A DNA stretch of 14,676 nt from assembly GCA_017520105.1 (NCBI GenBank), contig JAFWRL010000204.1, positions 1 through 14,676 on the forward strand, read 5' to 3'. The notes under the pieces are model-generated. The model was not told the DNA's origin. It made no database searches and saw nothing but the letters and a program-made list of their open reading frames with translations. How positions within the stretch are numbered: position 1 is the first letter of the stretch; the number at the start of each line of letters is the position of its first letter. Below are positions 1,592 through 14,466 of this stretch, piece after piece. Both the position numbers and the translations under genes were made by a program. Origin of the DNA: Fibrobacter sp. (GTDB taxonomy: Bacteria > Fibrobacterota > Fibrobacteria > Fibrobacterales > Fibrobacteraceae).

Positions 1592-2841
1592 CAGTCCCCT
1601 TTTGATTTGACGTTTTCTGCAGGCGCTGACTGTGCAGGCTGTTCTGGCTGCTTTTCAGGCTGCTTGACGGATGCGGCATCTTCGGGCTTGTTCGCCGGTT
1701 GCGGGGGAGCATTGGCCGTGTCGGGCTTGACTTTTGCGGAGTCTGCAGCTATTGAATTTTTGACCGTACTTGAATCGACCTTCGCGGAATCGGCGACGGT
1801 TGCTTTGGCAGAATCTGCAGTGATTGATTTTGCTGTATCTGCGTCGGCGGCGCTTACGGAATCCACGCTGGCGCTAGTTGCTTTCACGGAATCTGCGACA
1901 TTGGCGCTCACGGAATCCACACCGGCGCTATCCGCCGTATTCATGGTATCTTTTTTCGCGGAATCCTTTATGGAACGCAGTTTGTTCAAAATTCGTTTTT
2001 TGCGGAGCGATGGATTGTCATCATCATCGTCGTCGTCATCGTCATCATTGGGTCTCGGCTTGTTCCAGAATCCAAACGTTCCCCTAATCTGTAGCAGAAT
2101 CCCGCCCAGGTTCCATTTGGCTTTTTCGTCTGGCCCGCCAGGGACAATGTCCGAGAATTTCTTGTTGGACTTCACAGAAATAGAGTTGAATCCAATATCC
2201 CCATAGAGTTTGAAGTTCCTCCAGCTGGCAAAAAGGTAACCCACGCTTGCGCCAAAGCCGGCGCCAAAGAGCGGTGTCTTTGCACCGAGATAACCCCAGG
2301 TTGTATAAATTTCGGTCCCCGGCAAAACCCAGTACCAGCGAACCGCAATGCTGAAGAGTCCGCCCGTGCTGAGTGTGATAAAGTTTTTGGGCAACGCGAA
2401 TCGGTATTCGAGAAAAAGCGGAATCCCCTGTAGAGTGTATTCGTAACTGTGGGTGCTGCTGTTGCGGTCGGTGAGCACCACGGACTCGTTATCGTAGATA
2501 AAACCGATGCCCGCGCTTAAGAAGTGGTCTTGCAAGAACTGCCATTGGATTCCGGCAGTAACCGGAAAGCAGAAGTTCACTTTCTGAAAATCCTGCTTCG
2601 CGACATTCAGGGATTCGGCACTGTTGATGGCGCTTTCCCTGAAACCGTAATAGATTGTGTCGATGGCGTTCTGGAAGTATTCGCGTTCCGTAAAACTGAT
2701 GAACGAGATGGAAGGCTGCACAAAGACCGAAAGGATGGAATAGTCGTGGTCCAGTTTTTCATCACTATCAGCAAAGGCATTTGTTGCGAATACCAATGCC
2801 GTCAGGATACAGAGAATTGTGAATCTGGACTGGGACTTCAT
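1591..2841 (-). CDS. Outer-membrane beta-barrel protein with poly-Asp stretch and Ala/Asp/Ser-rich tail
   Basis: The 416-residue product starts with a clear Sec signal peptide (about residues 1-24, cleavage after AFA). Residues 25 to about 260 alternate polar and aromatic/hydrophobic residues with many Tyr, Phe and Gly, ending in a strand that closes with FGFW, as expected of an outer-membrane barrel. Ten consecutive Asp follow (residues 266-275), then a basic stretch (LRKKRILNKLRSIK). The remaining ~120 residues are degenerate ADSAK/ADSVK-type repeats and a Pro/Gln/Glu-rich end. A barrel with a long tail after its last strand is unusual; the tail would probably lie in the periplasm. The start is 7 bases after the bamD stop, so the two are probably co-transcribed, and the stop overlaps the next start. 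I cannot assign a substrate or a named family. Confidence 0.85.
   Translation of the reverse strand: MKSQSRFTILCILTALVFATNAFADSDEKLDHDYSILSVFVQPSISFISFTEREYFQNAIDTIYYGFRESAINSAESLNVAKQDFQKVNFCFPVTAGIQWQFLQDHFLSAGIGFIYDNESVVLTDRNSSTHSYEYTLQGIPLFLEYRFALPKNFITLSTGGLFSIAVRWYWVLPGTEIYTTWGYLGAKTPLFGAGFGASVGYLFASWRNFKLYGDIGFNSISVKSNKKFSDIVPGGPDEKAKWNLGGILLQIRGTFGFWNKPRPNDDDDDDDDDDNPSLRKKRILNKLRSIKDSAKKDTMNTADSAGVDSVSANVADSVKATSASVDSVSAADADTAKSITADSAKATVADSAKVDSSTVKNSIAADSAKVKPDTANAPPQPANKPEDAASVKQPEKQPEQPAQSAPAENVKSKGD
1720..1965 (-). repeat. Degenerate Ala-Asp-Ser coding repeats
   Basis: This stretch encodes many imperfect copies of a 4-6 residue unit around A-D-S-A/V-K within the barrel protein tail. 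The DNA repeats GCGGAATC/TGCGGAATCT-like words at irregular spacing. It is low-complexity coding sequence, not a mobile element, and could change length by slippage or recombination. Confidence 0.55.
2017..2046 (-). repeat. Run of ten Asp codons (GAT/GAC)
   Basis: Ten successive Asp codons, a mix of GAT and GAC, lie between two Asn codons. They mark the boundary between barrel and tail in the upstream barrel gene. The mixed codons make this an imperfect trinucleotide tract. An acidic run of this length could bind Ca2+ or other cations; that is inference. Confidence 0.75.
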
Positions 2842-2848
2842 CCGTTGC

Positions 2849-3700
2849 CTAGTTTGTCAATTTCTTTTCTTCTTTCTGGAGACGCTTCTTTTCGGCTTCT
2901 TGTTTCAGTCGCTTTTCGTAAGCTTCTTCGGCATTGGCGATTTTTGTTTCAGCCTTTTTAACTCGTTTCTGAATCTCGGCATCTTCGAGTGCTTCGTTTT
3001 GCGCTATCGCGAGATATTGTCTTGCAGGGTCAAACTGGTCGAGGTCTGTGTAGGCGTCCGAAATGAGGAACAGGACCTCTTGACGGCGCTTGGCCTTCGG
3101 GTAAGTTTCCAAAAATTCCTTGAAGTAAATCACTGCGGCTTGCGGCTTTTCCATGCGCAAGTAGAGACGGCCTGTCTGGAATTCCTTCTCGGCTACGCGA
3201 TCTATAAGCTGGTCGTAATAGTAGTTGACGGAGTCGCGGAGCGGGGAACTAGGGTGGTTGGCGAGGTAGCGCTCGAAGTCTTTCAATGCGGCGGTTGTGT
3301 TCGATTCATCGCGATCGACCTTGTAATCCATGTTGAACGACGAGACGGCCTTGCGGAATTCTGCGGTTTCGGCAAATGGGGATGCTGGGAAGTTTACGAT
3401 AAAGCTTCCATATTCGCCACGGGCCTCAATCCACTGCTCCAGGTTGAAATAGCTTTCGGCAAGCAGGAACTGCGCTTGTTCCATGTAGCCCGACCCAGCG
3501 CAGGTAGAAAGGATTTCTTCGAGTTTCTCGACTGTCCTGCCGTACTTCTTTGACTTGAAAAGTTCTTCTGCGACATCATAGCGTTTCTTGCACCAGTCGG
3601 TATGGGTCATTTTCTCGTTAGAGGTGGAGGAACAACCCATCATAGTTGTCATATAAAGGAAAAGAGGAACGAACAGGGTATTCTTGAAAAGAGTTTTCAT
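2849..3700 (-). CDS. bamD: BamD-type outer-membrane assembly lipoprotein (TPR)
   Basis: The 283-residue product has a lipoprotein signal ending MMGC with Cys23 as acylation site; Met at the -3 position is atypical. The mature part is TPR-like helical hairpins. Two blocks resemble E. coli BamD: the VDRD...AALKDFERYLANHPSS stretch and the EFQTGRLYLRMEKPQAAVIYFKEFLETYP stretch. BamD is the essential lipoprotein that works with BamA in folding outer-membrane barrels. The last ~45 residues are a Lys/Glu-rich extended helix or coiled coil not present in E. coli BamD (245 residues). I chose the ATG at 3700 over an in-frame GTG at 3730 because it gives a normal short basic n-region before the hydrophobic core; the SD is weak either way. 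It leads the minus-strand unit and diverges from lptF. Confidence 0.8.
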   Translation of the reverse strand: MKTLFKNTLFVPLFLYMTTMMGCSSTSNEKMTHTDWCKKRYDVAEELFKSKKYGRTVEKLEEILSTCAGSGYMEQAQFLLAESYFNLEQWIEARGEYGSFIVNFPASPFAETAEFRKAVSSFNMDYKVDRDESNTTAALKDFERYLANHPSSPLRDSVNYYYDQLIDRVAEKEFQTGRLYLRMEKPQAAVIYFKEFLETYPKAKRRQEVLFLISDAYTDLDQFDPARQYLAIAQNEALEDAEIQKRVKKAETKIANAEEAYEKRLKQEAEKKRLQKEEKKLTN

Positions 3701-3764
3701 TTTTTTTCTTTGGTTAATTCTAACTTTCACGCTGTAAAGTAGAAAAAAACGACTCTAGAGAAAA
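3701..3764. promoter_or_regulatory. Divergent intergenic region between bamD and lptF
   Basis: These 64 AT-rich bases must hold the start signals for both the bamD unit (minus) and the lptF unit (plus). A weak sigma70-like pair for the plus strand is TTGGTT at 3710-3715 and TGTAAA at 3733-3738, 17 bases apart. No convincing pair was seen for the minus strand. The location as a promoter region is solid from gene orientation; the specific boxes are tentative. Confidence 0.45.
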
Positions 3765-5213
3765 ATGATTTTAGTCCGCTATGTGTTGAAAGAGCTGATA
3801 GGCCCTTTTTTGGCGTCGCTCTTTGGCATTACTTTTTTGTTTGTAGTTGACTTTTTGGTCAAGATATTGGACAATGTGCTGTCCAAGGGCTTGCCTGCAT
3901 CTACCGTTATCGAAATTTTTGTTTTGAACCTCGCGTGGATGCTTTCACTGTCGATTCCGATGGCAGTGCTTGTCGCAAGCCTCATGGCGTTTGGCCGTAT
4001 GTCGGGCGACCAGGAAATTACGGCAGTCAAGGCGGCGGGGATTTCGCCGTTGTCGCTGATGCGCCCGGTGCTGCTTGTGGCGCTATTGCTTTCTGTCCTG
4101 ATGGTGGTGTTCAACAACTGGGTGCTCCCGGAGGCGAACCACAGGTCGGTCGAACTGATGAACGCCGTATCGCGCAAAAAACCGCACGTGTTCGTGGATG
4201 CCGGGCGCTTGATTACGCAGTTCCCCGGAGTCCAGCTTTGGGTGAACCGCATCGACCCCGTTTCGGGAACGTTGTACGGGATCCAAATTTTTGAAATGGA
4301 AAAGAAGGGTGCTCCGCGTATTGTCTATGCCGACAGCGCCACGATGGATTACGTCGATAACGGGGCGACGCTCATGCTCCGACTCCGCAGTGGCGAGACG
4401 CATCTCGTCGATCCGGACGATAATGATAACTATTTCCGCATCCGTTTCTTCTCGCAGGATTTGGCCATGCAGAATGTGGATGACCGCCTCGAACGCCGTA
4501 GCCGCAGTTACCGCAGCGACCGCGAAATGCCGGTCGAGATGATGTGGGAGGTGGTGACGGACGCCCGTGAAAAATATGACTCGGCAGCGGTCCAGGCCAA
4601 GTCCCGCCGGTTGCCGACGCTGATGCGCATGCGCGAACTCGTCATAGGCGATAGCATTGTTCCTGCCGATGCGAAAAATGCCGCGAAACAAGATTCCATG
4701 CAGTTCGTAAATGGGCTGCGCAAAGTCCGTGTGCAGGAGGCATCCTCGATGCGTGCGACAGAACGCGTTTGGGGCCGTATGGAAGGCGAACTCAAACGTG
4801 AAGCGCAGTACTTGGTCGAAATTCACAAAAAGTTCAGCACGGCGTTTGCGTGTTTCGTGTTTATATTGATTGGCGCCCCACTTGGAATCATGGCCCGCAA
4901 GGGCGGCATCGGTACAGGCATCCTTTACAGCCTTGCGTTCTTTGTCATCTACTGGATTTGCCTTATCGGCGGCGAAAACCTCGCTGACCGCTTGATTGTC
5001 TCTCCGGAACTCGCCATGTGGATTTCTAATATCCTTATTGGTGTGTTTGGTATCCTCCTTACGCGTGCGATGATTCGCGACCGATTTACTGGCAATTCCA
5101 TAATCCGCAGTTTCTTCGGAAAAATCGGACGCTTTGGAGGCAGGTTTATTGTCTTTAGGGCAATAGGTCGTTTCTTTAGTTTTGTTTTCGGCAAAATTGC
5201 GGAGTTGTTTTGA
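3765..5213 (+). CDS. lptF: LptF/LptG-family LPS export permease (LptF position)
   Basis: The 482-residue protein matches the YjgP/YjgQ permease family. It has three N-terminal membrane helices (about 11-33, 50-75 and 100-121), the signature PEANHR after helix 3, a periplasmic beta-jellyroll, and three C-terminal helices (about 361-380, 385-405 and 416-440). LptF and LptG pair with the LptB ATPase to extract LPS and pass it to LptC/LptA. It is about 115 residues longer than E. coli LptF. The excess is a charged, helical-looking insert (roughly 255-350) between jellyroll and helix 4, and a C-terminal extension after 440 rich in Phe, Gly, Arg and Lys. It overlaps lptG by one base. LptF and LptG are hard to tell apart by sequence alone; I assign F by gene order. 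Confidence 0.85.
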   Translation: MILVRYVLKELIGPFLASLFGITFLFVVDFLVKILDNVLSKGLPASTVIEIFVLNLAWMLSLSIPMAVLVASLMAFGRMSGDQEITAVKAAGISPLSLMRPVLLVALLLSVLMVVFNNWVLPEANHRSVELMNAVSRKKPHVFVDAGRLITQFPGVQLWVNRIDPVSGTLYGIQIFEMEKKGAPRIVYADSATMDYVDNGATLMLRLRSGETHLVDPDDNDNYFRIRFFSQDLAMQNVDDRLERRSRSYRSDREMPVEMMWEVVTDAREKYDSAAVQAKSRRLPTLMRMRELVIGDSIVPADAKNAAKQDSMQFVNGLRKVRVQEASSMRATERVWGRMEGELKREAQYLVEIHKKFSTAFACFVFILIGAPLGIMARKGGIGTGILYSLAFFVIYWICLIGGENLADRLIVSPELAMWISNILIGVFGILLTRAMIRDRFTGNSIIRSFFGKIGRFGGRFIVFRAIGRFFSFVFGKIAELF

Positions 5214-6304
5214 TGAGATTTTCCCGTTATCTTATTTGGAACTTCTTGAAAATGTTCCTCATCGTGGTCTGCGGTGCGGTACTCATTTTTGTCGTAATTG
5301 ACTTTGTCGGTAATATCAAGACATGGCTTTCCCGCGATATGAAACTCGTGGGAGACTACTACCTGAGCTATCTCCCGTATATCCTTTATTTGATTACCCC
5401 GGTTGCATTGTTTATCGCGGTCTTGGCCTCGGTGGGCAATATGGCGCGGCACCTTGAAATGAGTGCCATGCAGAGTTCCGGACAAAGTCCGCTCAAGACT
5501 CTCTTCCCGATATTCTTGCTTGGCGTATTCATGTCGGTTGGCTCTTACGAAATGAGCGAACACTGGCTCCCGGATGCAAACCACAGGCGTTTTGAAATCA
5601 TGGAAACAAACGCCCAAAAGCGCAAGAACCCGCGCATCAAGGAAAAGCAGGATTTCACGTTTATCGATAGCGAAAAGAGCAGCTGGTTTTTCAAGTACTA
5701 TTCCGGTACGAGTAAAGTGGGGCGAGATGTCGTACTCCTGGTTCGCAGTGAAGGCCGCCTAGTAGAACGTTACGATGTGCGCCTGATCCGTTGGGTTGAG
5801 AAGGATTCGCTCGCTTACTGGATGTTTGAAAATGGATACCGCCGTGTGTTCCACAAGGATGGCTCGGTCGAGTTCTTTCCTATCCAGCGCGAGAATATGA
5901 ACGGAAAGGTGCTGACGCATCCGAACGACTTGATTAATGAACGCCAGCTTGCCGATGAAATGGATTCCAAGATGGTCAAGGCGCGAATCGATGTCCTTCG
6001 ACGTTCTGGCGAAGATACCCGCGCGATGGAAACGGCGTTGCAGTTCAAGTATTCCGCCCATTGGATGAACCTGATTGTTCTTTTGATTGGGGCGGCCCTT
6101 TGCCATCGGTATAGCCGTTCTGGGGGGCTCTCCCAGAAATTCGGTGTTGGCCTTTTGCTTGTTTTTAGCTATTATATCCTAGAGAGGATTGGACTTAAAA
6201 TGGGTGAAAATGGAGCGCTTTCGCCTTTCTGGGCGGCGTGGAACAGTCACTTCATTTATGCCGGTCTCGCGATTGTCATGTTATATCGGTCTTTCCGCTT
6301 GTAG
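5213..6304 (+). CDS. lptG: LptF/LptG-family LPS export permease (LptG position)
   Basis: The 363-residue product has the same 3+3 helix plan as its neighbour and the family signature PDANHR after helix 3. N-terminal helices are near 12-31, 48-75 and 97-118, the periplasmic domain spans roughly 120-275, and C-terminal helices lie near 280-300, 305-325 and 333-355. It should form the LptFG heterodimer with the upstream product. I start it at the ATG at 5213, which overlaps the lptF stop as TGATG and has GGAG 8 bases upstream; a TTG one codon earlier is less likely. Length is normal for the family, unlike the enlarged partner. The next gene starts 8 bases after the stop. Confidence 0.85.
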   Translation: MRFSRYLIWNFLKMFLIVVCGAVLIFVVIDFVGNIKTWLSRDMKLVGDYYLSYLPYILYLITPVALFIAVLASVGNMARHLEMSAMQSSGQSPLKTLFPIFLLGVFMSVGSYEMSEHWLPDANHRRFEIMETNAQKRKNPRIKEKQDFTFIDSEKSSWFFKYYSGTSKVGRDVVLLVRSEGRLVERYDVRLIRWVEKDSLAYWMFENGYRRVFHKDGSVEFFPIQRENMNGKVLTHPNDLINERQLADEMDSKMVKARIDVLRRSGEDTRAMETALQFKYSAHWMNLIVLLIGAALCHRYSRSGGLSQKFGVGLLLVFSYYILERIGLKMGENGALSPFWAAWNSHFIYAGLAIVMLYRSFRL

Positions 6305-6312
6305 AGGGTTGT

Positions 6313-8127
6313 ATGTCCGTATCTGAAATATTGTTTGTTGTTGCAGGGGCGTTGCTTGGGTTGGCGTTTCAGGGGGGGATGTTCCTTTTCCTTATCCCGT
6401 TTGCGGTTGTCGCCTTCTCCTTGGCTGTGATGAACCGTCCGAACAATCCGAATACGTCTATACTTCCGGTGATTAAGCGGGACAAGCATTCGACGACACT
6501 TACACCGGTCGTGTCGCCGGACTTGCGTAATGAATTTACGAATGCGAACAAGGTGGAATCGAACGAACCGAATTCTTCTCTGCAGGTCAATCATATTTGG
6601 GAACGTGCAAACTCCGATGTGGATAAGGCGTTTGGCGATATCTTGCGTTGCCTCAAGGTGCTGATGCCGCAAGCGAATACACTCACCATCTTTACGAATG
6701 GTGGCAGCGTGAATGAACTTCGATTGAGAATGTTCCAAAGCGATATCCCGAACTGCATTGATACGGGGGCGAAGATAACCGAGAATATGGGAATTTTGAG
6801 CCAGTTGTTGCGCCCCGGTGTTTCCCGCATTTTGGAAGGCGACCTCCTGGTCGGAAAACGCTTGACATATTACATCGAAAACAGGATGATTCGTTCCTTG
6901 GTCGGTGTTCCGCTGCTGGGCCGCGACGAACAGCGCTTGGGTGTACTATTGGTGGACTCGCTGCACCCGAATGCGTTTACGGCAGCCGAGGCGCAGGCGC
7001 TCACGTACATCGCCCAGGCAATGTTCATGGTGAGTTTCAAGAGCTTTGCTTCGGCGCAGAACTATATTGAACAGCAACAGTTCAGTACGCTTTACCATTA
7101 CCAGCGCAAGTTCTTCCAGACCATGTCCGTCAAGGATATTTACAAGCAGATGTTCGAGTACGTCAAGGAGAACATGCCGTTCGACCGATTGACGATTCTT
7201 GCCCTCGATAAACCTAAGGAAGGTCTGGGCCATGTCGTCTATTGCGTCGGTATGGATTCCGAGCAGTTTGTCAACAAGTCGTTTACGTTATCTGATAAAG
7301 GCATTTTTGTGCTCGCCTTGATGAGGAACCGTCCTGTATTCCGTTCGTTCAATTCGGGCTATGCCGATTATGTGCCGCGACTGAACGATTCCGAAAAACG
7401 CAACATGGAACTGCGTCAGTTGTTTGTAATGCCTGTTTCGTCGGAACCGGATTCCAAGACCGCGGAATTGGCTATCTGCCTTGAAAGCCGTTTCACCAAC
7501 CGCTACCAGGATCACGAGAAAAAACTCTTGAAGGCTTTTGCTGGCGTGGCGGGCTTTGCTTATGCGCGCGCGTGTCAGTTCGAAAAGGGTAAGGACCTTG
7601 CGACTCGCGATGGACTTACAGGACTCATGAATCATCGGTCGCTGGAAGAATCGCTGAGGACCGAAAAAGTTCGTGCGGACCGTAAAAAGTACAATATCGG
7701 CGTGCTCATGATGGATATCGACCACTTCAAGCGCGTGAACGATACTTATGGGCATCCTGTTGGCGACGAGGTCATCAAGGGAATCGCTTTTGCAATCAGT
7801 GGCGAAATCCGCAAAGAAATCGATATCGTTGCGCGTTATGGCGGCGAGGAATTTGTCGTGGCGCTCATTGATACGACTCCGGAGGGCATGATCGAGACGG
7901 CTGAACGTATCCGCAAGGCAGTCGGCAAGTTGGAATTCAACGTCCATCAGCCGGATCCGCTTCGTGTGACGGTGAGCATTGGCGCGTTCCTCGTGGAGCC
8001 TGGATTCACGGACATGAAGAAGGCGGTCAACAATGCCGACCAAGCGCTTTACAAGGCGAAGGACGGCGGCCGCAACCAGGTCGTGCGTTTTGAAACCGTT
8101 GAAACTGAAGCGGTGGGAGCGGTTTAG
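6313..8127 (+). CDS. Membrane-anchored GAF-GGDEF diguanylate cyclase
   Basis: The 604-residue protein begins with two close hydrophobic helices (about 5-39). Two GAF-like sensory regions follow (about 93-236 and 257-420), then a GGDEF domain (about 430-600). GGDEF enzymes make cyclic di-GMP from two GTP. The catalytic motif is intact as GGEEF (510-514). The metal and substrate residues Asp468, Asn476 and Asp485 keep the spacing known from PleD (327, 335, 344). The inhibitory I-site, RxxD in PleD, reads KEID here (501-504), so product feedback may be weak or absent. The start ATG at 6313 has AGAGGG 4 bases upstream; an earlier in-frame start inside lptG is less likely. The short gap to lptG suggests co-transcription with the LPS export genes. 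The GAF ligands cannot be read. Confidence 0.9.
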   Translation: MSVSEILFVVAGALLGLAFQGGMFLFLIPFAVVAFSLAVMNRPNNPNTSILPVIKRDKHSTTLTPVVSPDLRNEFTNANKVESNEPNSSLQVNHIWERANSDVDKAFGDILRCLKVLMPQANTLTIFTNGGSVNELRLRMFQSDIPNCIDTGAKITENMGILSQLLRPGVSRILEGDLLVGKRLTYYIENRMIRSLVGVPLLGRDEQRLGVLLVDSLHPNAFTAAEAQALTYIAQAMFMVSFKSFASAQNYIEQQQFSTLYHYQRKFFQTMSVKDIYKQMFEYVKENMPFDRLTILALDKPKEGLGHVVYCVGMDSEQFVNKSFTLSDKGIFVLALMRNRPVFRSFNSGYADYVPRLNDSEKRNMELRQLFVMPVSSEPDSKTAELAICLESRFTNRYQDHEKKLLKAFAGVAGFAYARACQFEKGKDLATRDGLTGLMNHRSLEESLRTEKVRADRKKYNIGVLMMDIDHFKRVNDTYGHPVGDEVIKGIAFAISGEIRKEIDIVARYGGEEFVVALIDTTPEGMIETAERIRKAVGKLEFNVHQPDPLRVTVSIGAFLVEPGFTDMKKAVNNADQALYKAKDGGRNQVVRFETVETEAVGAV

Positions 8128-8130
8128 AAC

Positions 8131-8163
8131 TATGAGTTCGCGACGCGCTCCCTCCAGGATGAC
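8131..8163. repeat. Possible partial dispersed repeat (CCTCCAGGATGAC type)
   Basis: The 66-base gap between the cyclase and the symporter contains a GC-rich segment. On the minus strand it reads GTCATCCTGGAGGGAGCGCG followed by TCGCG. GTCATCCTGGAG openings are common in dispersed intergenic repeats of some bacterial genomes, and CGCGACGCG at its end is a short palindrome. No full hairpin or T-tract is seen, so it is not called a terminator. Only one copy is visible in the window, so repeat status is inference. Confidence 0.35.
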
Positions 8164-8193
8164 GAAAAAAAACTAACCACTGCCTACTAACCT

Positions 8194-9669
8194 ATGTTCA
8201 CAGTTATTGATTGGATTGTCTTATTCGGTTACTTGCTCCTCTCGCTTGCGATTGGGCTTTGGGTTTCGCGCGGAAACAAGAACCTCAAGGAATACATGTT
8301 CGGCGGCGGCTCGATGCCGTGGGTGGCCGTGGGCATCAGCCTCATCGCGACTTCCGTGAGCGCGACGACGTTCTTGGGCGCACCAGCCGACGTCTATGGC
8401 GATGACATGACGTTTTTGATGTTCCAGATTGGCGCCTTGCTCAGCATCTTCGTGGTGGGTTTTGTGTTTATTCCGCGGTTCCGCACGTCGGGCATTTCGA
8501 GCGCTTATGAACTTTTCGAAGTGCGTTTCGGGAGCAAGTCGGTGCGTCGCTTGGCGGCCATCTTTTACTGCTTGCATTTGCTGCTCCGCACGGGAATTTT
8601 ACTTTATGCGCCATCGCTTGTGCTTGCACAGATTTTGCATATCGACCTGAAATTGGCGATAATCGTTTCGGCGGCGGTTGCGATTTTCTACACGTGGTTC
8701 GGCGGCATCAAGGCGGTCATCTGGACCGATGTGATGCAGTTTGTCGTGTTCTTTGGCGGCGGTGCACTGGTGCTTTTGCTCATTGCAAATGCGGTGGGTG
8801 GCTTTGGCGAAATGGCGACACTCGCAAGCGAAGCCGGCAAGACACGTTGGTGGAATCCGTCAATGGATGTTTCTAATGCACGCACGCTGATTTCGGCAGG
8901 TTTCGCTTATGCAATTCTTGAAATCGCCATTCGCGGTTGCGACCAGCAGTTCGTGCAGCGTTACCTCAGCTGCAAGGATGTGAAGGCGGCCAACCGTTCG
9001 AGCATCCTTTCGATGGTGCTTGGCTGTGCGGTCTCGATTCTCTTTTACTGGGTAGGCGCCGCACTTTACGTTTATTACAACGTTTCAAAAGTCGCTACTG
9101 TTCCGGCGGGCATCGGGCAGAACGACGTGTTCCCGTACTTTATCGTGAACGGCCTCCCGGTCGGCGTGACGGGCTTGATTGTCGCTGCTATTTGCGCGGC
9201 AGCCATGAGCAGCCTTTCGGGCGCCATCAATTCGCTCAGCAATACGTCTGAACGCGACTTCCTCGGCTGGGACGAATCTGCGGGAATGGGCGGGCTCAAG
9301 CGCGCCAAAATCTGGACGGCTGTCTGGGGTGTACTTGGCGTGTTCTTTGCACTCTTTGCCGCAACGCAGCAGGGGAGCCTCCTCAAGAACGCCCTCTTCT
9401 TTACGGGACTTTTCACGGGACCGCTTCTCGGCATGTTCCTTTTGGCCTTCTTTGTGAAGAATTTGCGCAGTTGGCAAGTCATTATCGCCGTTATTTGCGG
9501 CATGGTAAGCCTCGTACTCATCCAGGGAATCCCCGCGTTTGGTGTGCCCGCACTTCTCGGCAATATCTTTAGCTGGCCGTGGATGCCTTTCATCAGTATG
9601 ACCACGACAATTGTGGTGGCGGTGGTGTTGAAGCTCGTGGCAAATCTTGTTTGCGCAAAACGCGGATGA
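8194..9669 (+). CDS. Sodium:solute symporter (SSS/SLC5 family)
   Basis: The 491-residue, highly hydrophobic product fits the SSS family of Na+-coupled importers (LeuT fold, typically 13-14 helices). Recognisable pieces are GGGSMPWVAVGISLIATSVSATTFLG (35-62), the GGIKAVIWTDVMQFVVFFGG segment, and AAAMSSLSGAINS (335-347). Ala52, Val55, Ala336, Ser339 and Ser340 line up with the Na2-site residues of vSGLT (Ala62, Ile65, Ala361, Ser364, Ser365) with the same spacing, so Na+ coupling is probable. The substrate (sugar, carboxylate, other) cannot be told. The ATG at 8194 is the first start after an in-frame TAA; no clear ribosome binding site precedes it. The frame ends in three consecutive stops (TGA TGA TAA), and RHS-derived sequence begins at once in another frame. 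No terminator separates them. Confidence 0.88.
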   Translation: MFTVIDWIVLFGYLLLSLAIGLWVSRGNKNLKEYMFGGGSMPWVAVGISLIATSVSATTFLGAPADVYGDDMTFLMFQIGALLSIFVVGFVFIPRFRTSGISSAYELFEVRFGSKSVRRLAAIFYCLHLLLRTGILLYAPSLVLAQILHIDLKLAIIVSAAVAIFYTWFGGIKAVIWTDVMQFVVFFGGGALVLLLIANAVGGFGEMATLASEAGKTRWWNPSMDVSNARTLISAGFAYAILEIAIRGCDQQFVQRYLSCKDVKAANRSSILSMVLGCAVSILFYWVGAALYVYYNVSKVATVPAGIGQNDVFPYFIVNGLPVGVTGLIVAAICAAAMSSLSGAINSLSNTSERDFLGWDESAGMGGLKRAKIWTAVWGVLGVFFALFAATQQGSLLKNALFFTGLFTGPLLGMFLLAFFVKNLRSWQVIIAVICGMVSLVLIQGIPAFGVPALLGNIFSWPWMPFISMTTTIVVAVVLKLVANLVCAKRG

Positions 9670-10324
9670 TGATAAGTTTACCGAGAATTTCACTGGAAAA
9701 GAGCGTGACGAGAAAATTAAGCTGAACTACTTCGGCGCCCGTTATCTCGACCCGATGCTCGGAATGTGGACAAGCGTGGACCCGATGAGGCAATTTGCTA
9801 GCCCGTATTTGTATGCAGGGAATGGATATAATCCAGTGAACGGGATGGATGCTGAAGGGAATGAGTTCGCTGAAAATGATCGTGTCATAAATATTGGTCA
9901 ATACATTTATGATAAACTTGTAAAGGTGGATTTTTTTGGTAGCGAGATTTTAAAAAATGATTGGAATGAAATGAAAAATTCAGATAGAATGATTACATTT
10001 AATTATTCGAGTATGGATGAAGGCGGTCATTCATGGAAAAGTCTAGATGCAATCGATATTAATACAAATTATAAAAATAATCTTGTGATGACCGCTAAAA
10101 CGGGACGACATGAATGGGACCATTTAAAGGGCATTCCAAAAGCTAGTTGGCATGAAAATCCTAAAAAAGACTTTATAAAAGATGTTACATATAATGATTT
10201 ATTAGGTGTAAATAATGCCATCCGAGAAGGAACCCTTCCTAAGAATCATGAAGCCTTTGGGAAAGAGTATGATCCCATTTATGGAAGAGATTATGATGCT
10301 TTTATGCAAATAGATTTGAAATAG
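9647..10324 (+). CDS. 5'-truncated RHS gene: core end plus C-terminal tip with HExxH motif
   Basis: The frame (225 codons from a TTG) holds the conserved end of an RHS core: FTGKERD at 9689-9709, YFGARYLDP at 9728-9754, then the SVDP...YLYAGNGYNP stretch to about 9865. Intact RHS proteins are far longer; everything upstream is missing because the frame closes at a TGA at 9629 inside the symporter gene. No good start or ribosome binding site is visible, so it is a fragment that may be silent or read from the symporter transcript. After about 9880 the DNA becomes AT-rich, as is usual for variable RHS tips. The tip (~150 residues) matches no toxin family I recognise but contains HEWDHLKG (10109-10132), an HExxH zinc-protease-like motif. 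Toxin activity is inference from RHS tips in general. Confidence 0.7.
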   Translation: MFAQNADDDKFTENFTGKERDEKIKLNYFGARYLDPMLGMWTSVDPMRQFASPYLYAGNGYNPVNGMDAEGNEFAENDRVINIGQYIYDKLVKVDFFGSEILKNDWNEMKNSDRMITFNYSSMDEGGHSWKSLDAIDINTNYKNNLVMTAKTGRHEWDHLKGIPKASWHENPKKDFIKDVTYNDLLGVNNAIREGTLPKNHEAFGKEYDPIYGRDYDAFMQIDLK

Positions 10325-10329
10325 TGATT

Positions 10330-10818
10330 ATGATTATGAATAGTTATACGCCAATTTTATTGATATTTTTGATTTTGATTATTTCGTGTAATCAAAAAAA
10401 AGATGAAGAACATATAAGATGCGAAACATCGATTTGTGTGATTCAAAAAAATCCTTTAGGGAAAATAGATGATTTTAGCAACTATCGAATTAACGAGTCG
10501 ACTTTGCCTAAGGGGATAAAGATTCTCTATAAAAATGAAAATCGAGATGATATTGATTGCATTATGATTTTTAACAATCCTTTTGTAACAACAATTTGTT
10601 TTGATTCTCTTGGCAAGGTTGTGAGTATGGATTCAAATATTCCTGAGGTGACAAGTAGTACGGTGAGGGATACTTCGGATTATCAAATTCACTTAAAATT
10701 TGACTCTTTGGGTGAAGCTAAGGGAAATTATAACCCAATCATGCCCCCTGGAAACACCTCTATTAAGTCTATTATAGAAGGAATAAAAAAGGTGGAAAAA
10801 AGTTTTAGCGCTCCTTAA
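10330..10818 (+). CDS. Small lipoprotein, candidate immunity partner of the RHS tip
   Basis: The 162-residue product has a hydrophobic N-terminus ending IISC with Cys20, a good lipobox, then a Lys/Asp/Glu-rich mature region. This suggests a lipid-anchored periplasmic protein, although the n-region lacks a positive charge. No known domain is recognised. It starts 5 bases after the RHS tip stop; GTG 10324 and ATG 10336 are alternative starts, and none has a clear SD. Base composition is as AT-rich as the tip and unlike the flanking genes, so the two probably arrived together. Genes in this place after RHS tips commonly encode immunity proteins; that role is inference from position. An intrinsic terminator lies 75 bases downstream. 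Confidence 0.68.
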   Translation: MIMNSYTPILLIFLILIISCNQKKDEEHIRCETSICVIQKNPLGKIDDFSNYRINESTLPKGIKILYKNENRDDIDCIMIFNNPFVTTICFDSLGKVVSMDSNIPEVTSSTVRDTSDYQIHLKFDSLGEAKGNYNPIMPPGNTSIKSIIEGIKKVEKSFSAP

Positions 10819-10893
10819 AAAGTGTTAGAATTGCTTTCGAAATAGCTTTTGCAGAATTTGTTGATGGTGAAACGATTCCATCTTTAGTTCACC

Positions 10894-10917
10894 AAAAGTC
10901 GCCTCGGCGGCTTTTTT
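10894..10917 (+). terminator. Intrinsic terminator after the RHS tip/lipoprotein module
   Basis: A 9-bp stem (10894-10902 with 10907-10915, one G-U pair) with a CTCG tetraloop runs into six T (10912-10917). It is preceded by A residues, giving it some bidirectional character. It closes the transcription unit that includes the lipoprotein gene and, since no other terminator is seen, possibly the symporter. Confidence 0.85.
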
Positions 10918-10992
10918 CCATATATTCAGTATGCAAGGCGATTGACAATGGTTTCCTTATGGAATCGGGCACTTGCGCCTGTAAGGGAATAA

Positions 10993-11298
10993 ATGTATAT
11001 TAGCGGTATGGTCAATTCAAAGGCGCTCCTGTCGAATGACGGGGGGTACATATCTTTCTCGTTTAACGGACGGACAATCCGGTTCAAGGGACCGTATAGT
11101 CTTGTTCGGATAGCGAGGGTCAAAGAATGGGACAACGGCTACCTTGTGGTCGATGCCGTCTATAGCCATAGCCAGGATAAGCTTGTCGAAGATTATATTG
11201 ACTTGGTTCCGATACTGGAAAACCTTTATATTGATCCGAAGCTTTTCTTGAAACCGATAAAGTCCGTAGAGGTAGGAGATGTCCGAGCAACAGCTTAA
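10993..11298 (+). CDS. Small protein of unknown function, first gene of a three-gene cluster
   Basis: This 101-residue, soluble-looking protein has a beta-rich N-terminus (ISFSFNGRTIRFKGPYSL) and ends with YIDLVPILENLYIDPKLFLKPIKSVEV. That last part faintly resembles the end of DUF2442 proteins, which often sit next to DUF4160 genes; I am not sure of this. AAGGGA 4 bases before the ATG at 10993 supports that start over the ATG at 11008. The coding sequence is markedly more GC-rich than the lipoprotein gene before it, so it belongs to a different module. It overlaps the next gene by 20 bases, implying a coupled operon. Confidence 0.68.
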   Translation: MYISGMVNSKALLSNDGGYISFSFNGRTIRFKGPYSLVRIARVKEWDNGYLVVDAVYSHSQDKLVEDYIDLVPILENLYIDPKLFLKPIKSVEVGDVRATA

Positions 11299-11512
11299 AG
11301 AAATCGCCGACAACGCCGACATGATTATCGCAAACTATTCGTTTACCGTTATGGAAAACGGCGACATCAAGATACTTTATCTAAGCAATCCTGACCAAGC
11401 CTGTGTGCTCAACAAAGATGGCGACATGATAATGTCTTCGATGGATGATGGCCGTCTCGCTCTTGTGCAAGCTTATTACTTGAAAAACAAGGACTTGATT
11501 GGTAACGACTGA
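11279..11512 (+). CDS. Small protein of unknown function, middle gene of the cluster
   Basis: The 77-residue product is acidic and soluble-looking, without signal peptide or membrane helix. It reads as a short helix followed by beta strands (FTVMENGDIKILYL, ACVLNKDGDMIMSS) and a C-terminal helix. I do not recognise the family with confidence. The start ATG lies inside the end of the previous gene, with AGAGG 6 bases upstream, and its stop overlaps the next start (TGATG). Such tight packing suggests the three products act together. Confidence 0.68.
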   Translation: MSEQQLKEIADNADMIIANYSFTVMENGDIKILYLSNPDQACVLNKDGDMIMSSMDDGRLALVQAYYLKNKDLIGND

Positions 11513-11796
11513 TGCCGAAGTATTTCCCTTTCAAAATTGCGGGCTATTATCTCTATTTCACGATGGCGTGCATCGTCGAATGTATCCACGCACACGCGAG
11601 CGATTCGAAACTGACAGAAACCGGCTCAGCGAAACTGTTCATCAAGTCGGATGGCGATACGATTGTCCAAAAACGCGGGGCGCTTTCCGATAAAGAACTT
11701 GCGATCATCCAGAAATACATCAAGAACAACTATCTGACGATGTTCGAAATGTGGTCGCAGTATTCGGAACATGGGTTCTTCGGCGAAAATAAGTAG
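11512..11796 (+). CDS. DUF4160-like small protein
   Basis: The 94-residue product begins MPKY, has a GYYLYF strand, the pair His26-Ala-His28, an AKLFIKSDGD strand, a SDKELAIIQKYIKNN helix and a late Trp. This order matches DUF4160 proteins (MPxY...GY...F...HxH...AK...G...EL..I...I...W). DUF4160 genes are usually small and paired with other short genes; a toxin-antitoxin role has been suggested for such pairs but is not established. The hydrophobic run at 9-25 should not be read as a signal peptide, since it covers the conserved strands of the family. The start overlaps the previous stop by one base. The RHS scrap begins a few bases after the stop, and no terminator lies directly behind it. 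Confidence 0.68.
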   Translation: MPKYFPFKIAGYYLYFTMACIVECIHAHASDSKLTETGSAKLFIKSDGDTIVQKRGALSDKELAIIQKYIKNNYLTMFEMWSQYSEHGFFGENK

Positions 11797-11811
11797 TTTT
11801 ACAGATCCTGC

Positions 11812-12006
11812 CTGAAAATTTCCTATGATTGGAGAGGTATGCCAATCGAATTCACACAGACGCAGCAACCTACGGGAAGTTCCAGCGATACCGCCCGCCT
11901 TTCGATGATGTACGACGGATCGGGCAGGCGTATCTCCAAGACGCGTTGGGTCAAAAAAGGTCGATGCTTTTTCAATTGGGATTTGGCTAATGCTCCTTTT
12001 GTATAG
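11812..12006 (+). pseudogene. RHS/YD-repeat remnant
   Basis: The frame reads KISYDWRGMPIEF, then a Gln/Thr/Ser-rich stretch, then MMYDGSGRRISKTRW (11905-11949), which is the YD-repeat style of RHS proteins. Recognisable homology ends near 11961 and is followed by unrelated codons and a TAG at 12004-12006. There is no upstream RHS sequence: a stop lies at 11794-11796, the end of the DUF4160-like gene. In an intact RHS protein this segment would precede the FTGKERD core now found 2 kb upstream, so the order is reversed. An ATG at 11839 with GGAGAGG could in principle start a 55-residue peptide; I regard it as debris. Confidence 0.65.
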
Positions 12007-12103
12007 CAAGAGGTATGCCGTCATGGATTGCGGTAGAAATCTCGTAAATATTATTTTTCTGAATCGTAACTAAGAAATTAAGTAGTTTATCATTGGATGA
12101 ATT
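12007..12103. other. Gap with no recognisable gene
   Basis: This AT-rich stretch between the RHS remnant and the terminator hairpin shows no coding or repeat signal I can support. It contains a second copy of AGAGGTATGCC (12009-12019), first seen at 11833-11843 inside the RHS remnant. Together with 11797-12006 and the hairpin, it makes about 360 bases without an intact gene. Confidence 0.4.
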
Positions 12104-12130: not shown

Positions 12131-12150
12131 GATTTTGTGGATGTTAAAAA

Positions 12151-12155
12151 AGGAG
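12151..12155 (+). promoter_or_regulatory. Ribosome binding site AGGAG deciding the SIMPL gene start
   Basis: AGGAG sits 5 bases before the ATG at 12161. An in-frame GTG at 12137 would place this site inside the coding region and has no comparable site of its own. Confidence 0.8.
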
Positions 12156-12160
12156 AAAAT

Positions 12161-13606
12161 ATGCAAAATAAGGTTTCGTATATCGTCATCATCGTGCTTG
12201 CGTTTGTGTGCCTCTTGCTTTCTATGAGGCTTTCGCACGAAGGAAATGCGGCGAAACAGGCAGAATCTGCCGAACAGGCGAAGGCTTCCGCGAGCGAGTC
12301 TGCGAACTCTAAGGATAGTTGGAATGTCATTTCTCTTTCGACAAGTGAGCAAGAGATGTTTGTTGCTGACGAGTACAAGATTACGTTCAAGATTGTCCAA
12401 AAGCAAAAAGAGAAGAGCCGTGCTTTTGCCTTGCTGAACGAAAGCCGCGAAAAGGTTCTATCGATGCTCAAGGAATTGAATGTCGATAAGTCAAGCTACG
12501 ATCTCCGTTCGATGCGTATTTCTAATGACATAGAACGTCGCCGCGATGGCAAGAGAGTTAAGGTGGGCTATGAGGCCGAGCAGGAGGTCGAGATAAAGCT
12601 TGCGACCAAGTCCTTTAGCGATGCTGTTGAGCGTAAACTGGCAACTCTCGATTTTATAGATGATTTCGAGACTGTTGGCGGATTGAAAAATGCGGATTCG
12701 CTAGAGGTCGAAACGATAAAGCGTACGTGCAAGAAAGTGCTGGAACAGGCTGATGTGTATGCAAGAAGTGTCGGTGCCAAGGTGGGGAAGGTTCTTGCCG
12801 CAGAAGGTAATTCCAATGTGAATGAGCGCAATAGCTATTCTGATTCTGTAGGCATCAATGCTCATTTGAATGTGTCTGTGCAACTTCAAGGCCGTGACGG
12901 TTCTAAGCAATCTTATGTCCAAGTGAGTCAGGAAGAATCGAAGAAATTTTTGGCGGACTTGTTTACTATTTACGCAGGGGCTGTCGTTGATGGCGATGAC
13001 AGGGAGAAAATCTATGGTCAGGTGGGGCGCGTGAAGGATTCCATTGTGGCTCTCGCTAGAAGATTGGGTGTTGCTGAATCCGAAATAGAAGTTCATACCG
13101 CAAGGATTGGAATTAAATCCCAATGGGATTTTACGAACAACGAGTCTAAGAAAAATCGTTTTAGGGCACGCCAGTTTGTGACGGTCAATTTTACGTCCAA
13201 GCAGGATGCCGCGGCATTTTTGGCGGAAGTCGGTGGCGCCGAAAATGTGACTGTTGGTGATGTTCGTTCTGTATTGAAAAATAGCGATTCTCTTAAGGTC
13301 CTTGTGACTGAAATTGCAGGGAAAAAAGCCATGATGCGTGCCCGTGCGATTGCAGAAGGCTTTGGTGGCAAGGTGGGCGATGTCGTGTATGTGGGGAACA
13401 ACACGTCTTACGATTACAATGTGGTTAACGAGATTTCTTATGAATCCAGTGCCAGGGGCAGGACTGTGCTTGGAAATAGCCGAGGAGTTTCTGGAGCCTA
13501 TTTTGATGGCTTGGCCGGTTTTTTGGGTGGCGGCGATGCCTCGGGCATGATTGCGGATTCTGTTGAAGTCAGTTCCAGTGTGAATGTCATTGCAGAACTG
13601 AAATAA
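12161..13606 (+). CDS. Tandem SIMPL (DUF541) domain envelope protein
   Basis: The 481-residue product has one N-terminal membrane helix (about 6-22) as anchor or uncleaved signal, an Ala/Ser/Glu-rich linker to about 55, and two SIMPL-like domains (roughly 55-245 and 250-481). Both halves show the family plan: a VS/LS...E strand, a long helix, a strand, then ...ARxxAxxxGxKVGxVxxV (YARSVGAKVGKVLAAEG and RARAIAEGFGGKVGDVVYVGN), and a closing VSVQL/VNVIAEL strand. SIMPL proteins are mostly periplasmic or membrane-attached and of loosely defined role. The first domain ends near 245 with a normal closing strand, so this looks like an ancient internal duplication. The C-terminus IADSVEVSSSVNVIAELK nearly matches that of the next gene, marking them as paralogues. 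Codon choice is more T-ending than in the next gene. Confidence 0.82.
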   Translation: MQNKVSYIVIIVLAFVCLLLSMRLSHEGNAAKQAESAEQAKASASESANSKDSWNVISLSTSEQEMFVADEYKITFKIVQKQKEKSRAFALLNESREKVLSMLKELNVDKSSYDLRSMRISNDIERRRDGKRVKVGYEAEQEVEIKLATKSFSDAVERKLATLDFIDDFETVGGLKNADSLEVETIKRTCKKVLEQADVYARSVGAKVGKVLAAEGNSNVNERNSYSDSVGINAHLNVSVQLQGRDGSKQSYVQVSQEESKKFLADLFTIYAGAVVDGDDREKIYGQVGRVKDSIVALARRLGVAESEIEVHTARIGIKSQWDFTNNESKKNRFRARQFVTVNFTSKQDAAAFLAEVGGAENVTVGDVRSVLKNSDSLKVLVTEIAGKKAMMRARAIAEGFGGKVGDVVYVGNNTSYDYNVVNEISYESSARGRTVLGNSRGVSGAYFDGLAGFLGGGDASGMIADSVEVSSSVNVIAELK

Positions 13607-13668
13607 TGTGGTCTCGCAGCGGAAAAATGACTATTTTAAATCCATCATATTAAAAAGAGGGCTAAACA

Positions 13669-14466
13669 ATGATGCAAAAATTGCTCAATATCATCTATCT
13701 TATCGTGCTTGTCGTGTGCGTGTGCCTGATTATTCGCGTATTCAATGCGCAACCGGCAACTGTCCCTGCGGTCGCTGCCGCAAACGGCAATGGCACCACG
13801 ACAATCGAAATTCCGCGCATCGAAGTCTCGGCATCCGAAACCAAGAAGTTTGCCGCCGACAAGTTCGAGATGAACTTCAGCCTTGAAATCCGCGGCAAGG
13901 ACAAGGAAGCCGTTTTCAAGCGTATCTCGGAACGCCGCGCCGTGATTTTCGAGAACGTCAAGTCGCTCGATATTCCGCAGTCCGACGTGGAGCAGAACAG
14001 CGTCGATATCCGCAAGGAATGGACTTATCGCAATAACAAGCGCGAACTCGTCGGTTACGTAGCGACGCAGAACTTCACCATTACCGTGAACAGGAAGATT
14101 GACGCTGCCGCTCTCGTGCAGGCTCTTTCTCCGGAACCGGATGTCGAAATCCGTCGTACGGCAGTGGGGCTCAAGGACGAAGATGCTGTGCAGTCGAAGG
14201 TAATCAAGGTCGTGGGCGAAAAGGCGAAAAACAAGGCCAAGAATTACGCCGAAGGCGTGGGTGCAAAGCTTGGCCGCGTTCTGCAGATTAACGGCGAAGG
14301 TGGCGGTGTTTATTACAGGCCGATTCGCTTCCGCACGAACGGTGTCATGATGGCAAAATCGGCAATGATGGACGGTGCCGCAGCCGAAATGGCTCCCGAC
14401 GAAAGCGCCATTGCCGATTCCGTCGAGGTGAGCGCATCGGTCCGTGTTATGTTTGAACTAAAGTAA
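13669..14466 (+). CDS. Single SIMPL (DUF541) domain envelope protein
   Basis: The 265-residue product has an N-terminal membrane helix (about 5-24), an Ala/Pro/Gly linker, and one SIMPL domain (about 48-265). Family marks are EVSASETKKFAADKFEMNF, VGYVATQNFTITV, KAKNYAEGVGAKLGRVLQING and the closing VEVSASVRVMFELK. AGAGGG 7 bases before the ATG at 13669 supports the start; the next codon is also ATG. It lies 62 bases after its tandem-domain paralogue, and no terminator is seen between them, so both may be one unit or have separate promoters. Codon use is strongly biased to C/G-ending codons, suggesting higher expression than the paralogue. Its last 9 bases overlap the minus-strand oxidoreductase gene. 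Confidence 0.85.
   Translation: MMQKLLNIIYLIVLVVCVCLIIRVFNAQPATVPAVAAANGNGTTTIEIPRIEVSASETKKFAADKFEMNFSLEIRGKDKEAVFKRISERRAVIFENVKSLDIPQSDVEQNSVDIRKEWTYRNNKRELVGYVATQNFTITVNRKIDAAALVQALSPEPDVEIRRTAVGLKDEDAVQSKVIKVVGEKAKNKAKNYAEGVGAKLGRVLQINGEGGGVYYRPIRFRTNGVMMAKSAMMDGAAAEMAPDESAIADSVEVSASVRVMFELK

Follow-up and report, generated by a model that had tools for sequence, protein, structure and literature searches.

An orphan RHS tip in Fibrobacter: a likely spare toxin part with a predicted zinc metallopeptidase domain and a likely immunity gene next to it

Results

A 14,676-nucleotide contig of Fibrobacter sp. (JAFWRL010000204.1, assembly GCA_017520105.1; hereafter the window) carries an orphan RHS tip, encoded by an open reading frame (ORF) of 225 aa at 9647..10324 on the forward strand. 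Its first part is the end of an RHS core (Rhs_assc_core, 9674..9868, forward strand), common to other cassettes and to full-length RHS genes; TIGR03696 matches ORF residues 10-71 with an E-value of 3.1e-12, exceeding the cut-off of the model. This agrees with the first-pass annotation, which had been made from the sequence letters and had described a frame retaining only the core end. Directly behind it follows a variable tip of about 152 residues (9866..10321, forward strand), a predicted zincin-like metallopeptidase domain on the grounds of its relatives and its predicted structure. The term orphan RHS tip was therefore apt, and the arrangement of core end and variable tip is that of an orphan RHS C-terminal (CT)/immunity module. 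The window has no main rhs gene; the module is found by itself in a variable site, just behind a gene for a symporter. The frame is open for all 225 codons as originally annotated, but translation from 9647 appears doubtful, since the TTG start lies within the symporter gene, where it may not be used, and since the corresponding site of a related genome (G039) has a stop codon between the TTG and the core. No signal peptide was found in the ORF.

A candidate immunity lipoprotein is encoded at 10324..10818 on the forward strand, with possible starts at 10324, 10330 and 10336, thus at or no more than 12 bases from the stop codon of the tip, and with a lipobox-like IISC whose Cys codon occupies 10387-10389. 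The tip and this gene have nearly identical GC contents (0.316 and 0.315), differing from those of the core piece (0.482), the symporter gene (0.545) and the SIMPL gene further downstream (0.467); the tip had been called AT-rich before, and these values bear that out. Given their equal unusual GC content and their abutting position, the tip and the next gene look like one imported unit. The lipoprotein-like gene belongs to no Pfam family; a single weak relative, 29% identical (E 0.001), was detected in 1 of 167 genomes, and no RHS gene was seen in the 3.3 kb read around it.

The tip contains HEWDH (10109..10123, forward strand), the predicted catalytic and zinc-binding motif, in which H, E, D and H are invariant. 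Its residues had been numbered correctly as His155, Glu156 and His159, the motif starting at residue 155 (window position 10109), and a further His had rightly been placed ten residues past the second one. This is His169 (10151..10153, forward strand), part of a conserved WH and, according to the alignment of relatives, a candidate third ligand. Alternative candidates are the invariant Asp209 and Asp215 in YDPIYGRDYD (residues 208-217; 10268..10297, forward strand), where the last predicted helix begins.

A first protein search returned five clusters, among them the window's own (P0001, a 90% cluster of six member sequences on 11 contigs), and a profile search returned nine, six of them new, so that ten clusters besides P0001 are known; the source of P0006 is named Fibrobacter sp. 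Nine relatives were aligned with the tip of the window (P0002-P0004 and P0006-P0011), while P0005 ends before the motif. An internal deletion has removed the motif region from P0011, and about 70 residues ahead of the motif are missing from P0003. GRHExDHLKG and WH are retained in all eight other relatives that have the motif region, including P0010, which is only about 40% identical to the tip. In an eight-row alignment (the window, P0002, P0004 and P0006-P0010), there is likewise no variation at A93, N116, K133, D136, IYG and D142 (positions counted in the tip). Shuffling of the tip produced HE..H in 160 of 20,000 cases (0.8%), so the HExxH motif is by itself only mildly unusual; its retention by all eight relatives nevertheless indicates more than chance.

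These data also bear on the reading that the ORF is a dead remnant, a leftover of an RHS gene without a role that is neither expressed nor recombined. The doubtful start, the lack of an export signal, the stop codon before the core and the missing tip in G039, and the internal deletions in P0003 and P0011 would all fit such a leftover. We regard it as improbable, in view of a frame open over 225 codons, the six sequences on 11 contigs within 90% of the tip and a motif kept down to about 40% identity; the G039 core, with seven base differences from the window (five codons synonymous, two not), offers too few changes to decide.

No family model covered the tip above noise: Pfam gave no match at E <= 10, and NCBIfam and PHROGs gave noise only (E 0.12 and 0.062, respectively). 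This matches the earlier statement that the tip could not be placed in a toxin family. Judged by these sequence comparisons, the tip family is new to the libraries searched and of a kind already known, neither a Pfam nor an NCBIfam model covering it. Peptidase_M91 (PF14891) was rejected as an assignment, as its profile did not match the tip in the Pfam search at E <= 10.

In the predicted structure, HEWDH (tip residues 82-86) lies inside a helix spanning residues 73-88, as expected of a zincin metallopeptidase (clan MA). The best Foldseek matches of the model were zinc peptidases, namely selecase, abylysin and jannalysin, with a best E-value of 0.016, hence weak. These three, which we take to be the minigluzincins, resemble the tip in being small metallopeptidase domains, but they are archaeal, measure about 104-112 residues in PDB and show no sequence match to the tip beyond noise. 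A second predicted structure, of P0010, was too poor for searching. The spacing HExxHxxGxxH/D of the metzincins is not present, as the next His follows ten and not six residues after the second His, which is what had been noted initially. Peptide deformylase, which combines an HExDH motif with a metal-binding Cys, was also discarded, since the ORF contains no cysteine and no deformylase was among the structural matches listed. The original suggestion of a possible undescribed metallopeptidase is thus supported as a prediction: there is no family match, the motif is kept, and the best structural matches, weak as they are, are zinc peptidases.

Alternatively, HExDH could be a chance occurrence or belong to a different metal site, for which the similar motif of peptide deformylase is an example, with the structural model being drawn to zincins by the motif. 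The modest Foldseek E-value, the frequency of the motif in shuffled tips and a profile search against PDB, in which a single chain matched at E 1 and none beyond noise, are compatible with this idea. However, the strong conservation of the motif helix among the relatives and, as regards deformylase, the lack of the cysteine that this enzyme needs speak against it, and we consider it very improbable.

Occurrences of the tip elsewhere were rare. An exact-tip protein search found it in none of 200 relatives at E <= 0.001. The tip profile hit 1 of 167 genomes of the phylum (E 0.037), within an ORF that by eye is unrelated and resembles a binding protein, and 3 of 80 genomes of the genus at E <= 1, of which the best, the one read, looks like noise; searches of genome contigs, viral contigs and plasmids returned no match. 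Attachment of the same tip to full-length RHS proteins, proposed as a check in the first-pass annotation, was seen in part: in P0002 and P0003 the tip is fused to longer stretches of RHS core. No intact RHS protein with the exact tip was found among proteins of about 605-1,925 residues, a range that missed the right size because the full-length RHS proteins of this lineage have about 2,250-2,460 residues.

The core piece proved far more widespread than the tip, with a 65-residue piece matching 34 of 80 genomes of the genus at E <= 1e-8. Thirty stretches, with matches down to about 4e-17, were fetched and analysed together with the G039 site, covering 21 genomes and the window; this selection leaves out weaker core matches, which often lie on frames of about 1,500-1,800 residues. 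The five full-length RHS proteins read comprise 2,254 to 2,457 residues and have, by eye, signal-peptide-like starts. Behind three of the five, in L086, L087 and L089, lie two or three more core pieces with tips. Altogether, 65 core hits yielded 50 distinct tips no shorter than 85 residues, and in 49 cases an ORF follows; at least one tip (L083_4927) rests on a poor core match. HE..H or HE...H occurs in 16 of the 49 tips (the window included, with two near-identical pairs); 500 shuffles gave 0.4 on average and never more than 3. In 46 of 49 cases the ORF behind the tip begins with a strongly hydrophobic N-terminus (14/16 for HE tips, 32/33 for the others). Control ORFs were picked in the same way, following ORFs of 250 residues or more on either strand of 12 symporter sites and the window, and include some that are not real genes; among these 72 the count was 30. 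One of the two HE misses, in L087, is an artefact of start choice: at L089, whose tip is near-identical, and at L088, whose tip is identical, the longer ORF opens with a hydrophobic stretch.

Ten of the HE tips were compared with Pfam: L075:248-742 passed the cut-off of Peptidase_M91, L079:8280-8756 stayed below it (E 0.004), and the other eight gave noise. In G018, an intact RHS protein, 2,254 residues long, has an HELDH tip at its end. In a profile-profile comparison, the HELDH/HELNH sister tips were collinear with the window's tip over 129 columns at E 0.00087, with a probability of only 23%. When the tip was compared with the 49 single tips, the first five non-self scores (22.2 to 20.1) all belonged to HE tips, only slightly above the best reversed control (18.8). 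A relationship between the HELDH/HELNH tips and the window's tip is thus suggestive, a lead rather than established homology. Several core pieces in a row were also seen in L079, L087, L089 and L090, where zincin-like tips are accompanied by glycine-rich membrane-type tips and HAHG/HTHG-type tips, the latter presumably JAB-like; the ORFs behind these mostly begin with a hydrophobic stretch.

The module lies in a variable island (9670..12033). Its left anchor is a conserved sodium:solute symporter gene (8194..9669, forward strand; PF00474) present in 78 of 80 genomes of the genus, and its right edge is formed by two tandem SIMPL (DUF541) genes identified by library match (12137-14466). Twelve of the 78 symporter sites were aligned with the window. 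The distance between the flanking matches is 119 bases in G001, 23 bases in G068 and about 2.4 kb in the window, where the right match begins at 12043-12044. Other cargo, assigned by eye, includes a type I restriction system in G051 and lipoprotein-like genes in G073, G005 and G028. G039 is the only one of the 12 with the same RHS piece (46 residues, 95.7% identical), an unrelated gene replacing the tip. The near-empty sites of G001 and G068, the differing cargo and the stop codon in G039 indicate by comparison that this is a variable cargo site and that the TTG start is not conserved.

Behind the RHS module, the island of the window contains two overlapping small genes (10993-11512) matching the domains of unknown function DUF7724 (E 1.8e-35) and DUF7723 (E 5.7e-26), followed directly by a small gene (11512-11796) with a match to DUF4160 (25.2 bits, cut-off 23). 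By eye, the G051 cargo (L040, reverse complement, 1605-9918) includes ATPase-like proteins besides the type I restriction-modification system. In some relatives the match to 12137-14466 is incomplete, so that the number or spacing of the SIMPL genes may differ.

Discussion

Orphan rhs-CT/rhsI modules occur in several Rhs systems, in which the Rhs-CTs inhibit growth and are blocked by RhsI (PMC3150448), and an orphan Rhs toxin has been described as deployed once recombined with the main rhs gene (PMC3967940). The module of the window shares with those systems the core end, the variable tip, the small downstream gene and a place apart from a full-length rhs gene; its doubtful start and missing signal peptide may correspond to their lack of an evident start or export signal. 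It differs in standing alone behind a symporter gene, in having a candidate lipoprotein as partner and in being known from sequence. A literature search combining Fibrobacter, Rhs and toxin returned, judged by title, only Ornithobacterium papers. Comparative genomics has, however, described zincin-like tips on RHS proteins and listed fibrobacteres as carriers of several toxin families (PMC3482391). HExxH toxin domains often found with RHS repeats are known from that study (Tox-MPTase1-5 and HopH1/NleD) and as Pfam Peptidase_M91. The window's tip differs from the last of these, whose cut-off is passed by its sibling in L075; the tip likewise gave no match to Tox-MPTase1-5 in Pfam, which may not contain all five.

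A second parallel is VgrG2b, a zinc metallopeptidase effector whose toxicity shows in the periplasm but not in the cytoplasm. An exported immunity protein blocks it, and homologues of this protein in Enterobacteriaceae are predicted lipoproteins (PMC6899460). The pairing of VgrG2b, a delivery protein carrying an HExxH domain, with PA0261, an immunity protein exposed in the envelope, resembles that of the tip with its candidate immunity lipoprotein. Conversely, VgrG2b is a spike of the type VI secretion system with Glu983 as third ligand, while the tip sits on RHS, matches no Pfam model and has His169, Asp209 and Asp215 as candidates. By analogy with VgrG2b, the lipoprotein-like neighbour is the likely immunity gene. 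The 16 HExxH/HExxxH tips and the 46 hydrophobic downstream N-termini among the 49 cassettes point, by the same analogy, to toxins acting in the envelope as the tips of this lineage.

The tip might instead be a zincin-like toxin whose target is cytoplasmic, lying by coincidence next to the lipoprotein-like gene. Metallopeptidase effectors of the NleD and HopH1 types act after injection into host cells (PMC3482391), and the link between tip and neighbour is drawn here from sequence. Since the two genes abut with equal unusual GC content and nearly all tips of the lineage are followed by a gene whose product has a hydrophobic N-terminus, we find a cytoplasmic target quite improbable. The chances we assign to the rival readings overlap, as zincin ancestry is compatible with a dead remnant.

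Taken together, it seems probable to us that the orphan RHS tip is a spare toxin part, a predicted envelope zinc metallopeptidase, beside its likely immunity gene. As with VgrG2b, the tip would cut proteins in the envelope of a rival bacterium, and the lipoprotein-like neighbour would neutralise it there and so protect its owner. As it stands, the piece is probably silent, given the missing signal peptide and the doubtful start codon. To serve as a weapon it would first have to recombine into a full-length RHS gene of its lineage, a step we infer from the shared core and from published work on Salmonella. A bolder version, which we think unlikely in its full form, is that the tip is the first member of a new zincin family whose metal site is unusual (HExDH and a His ten residues on). 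It would then be one of a large library of exchangeable envelope-attacking metallopeptidases, kept in Fibrobacter as silent cassettes behind or away from exported RHS proteins, each with an envelope-anchored immunity protein.

The partner gene, the variable site and the many cassettes of the same RHS lineage are additions to the first-pass annotation. If our reading is right, it would add a tip family outside the Pfam and NCBIfam models and a site at which such modules are gained and lost. It would also mean that predicted metallopeptidase tips beside genes with exported-type starts abound in a single RHS lineage, which would offer many toxin-immunity pairs open to testing, whose envelope targets are to be found.
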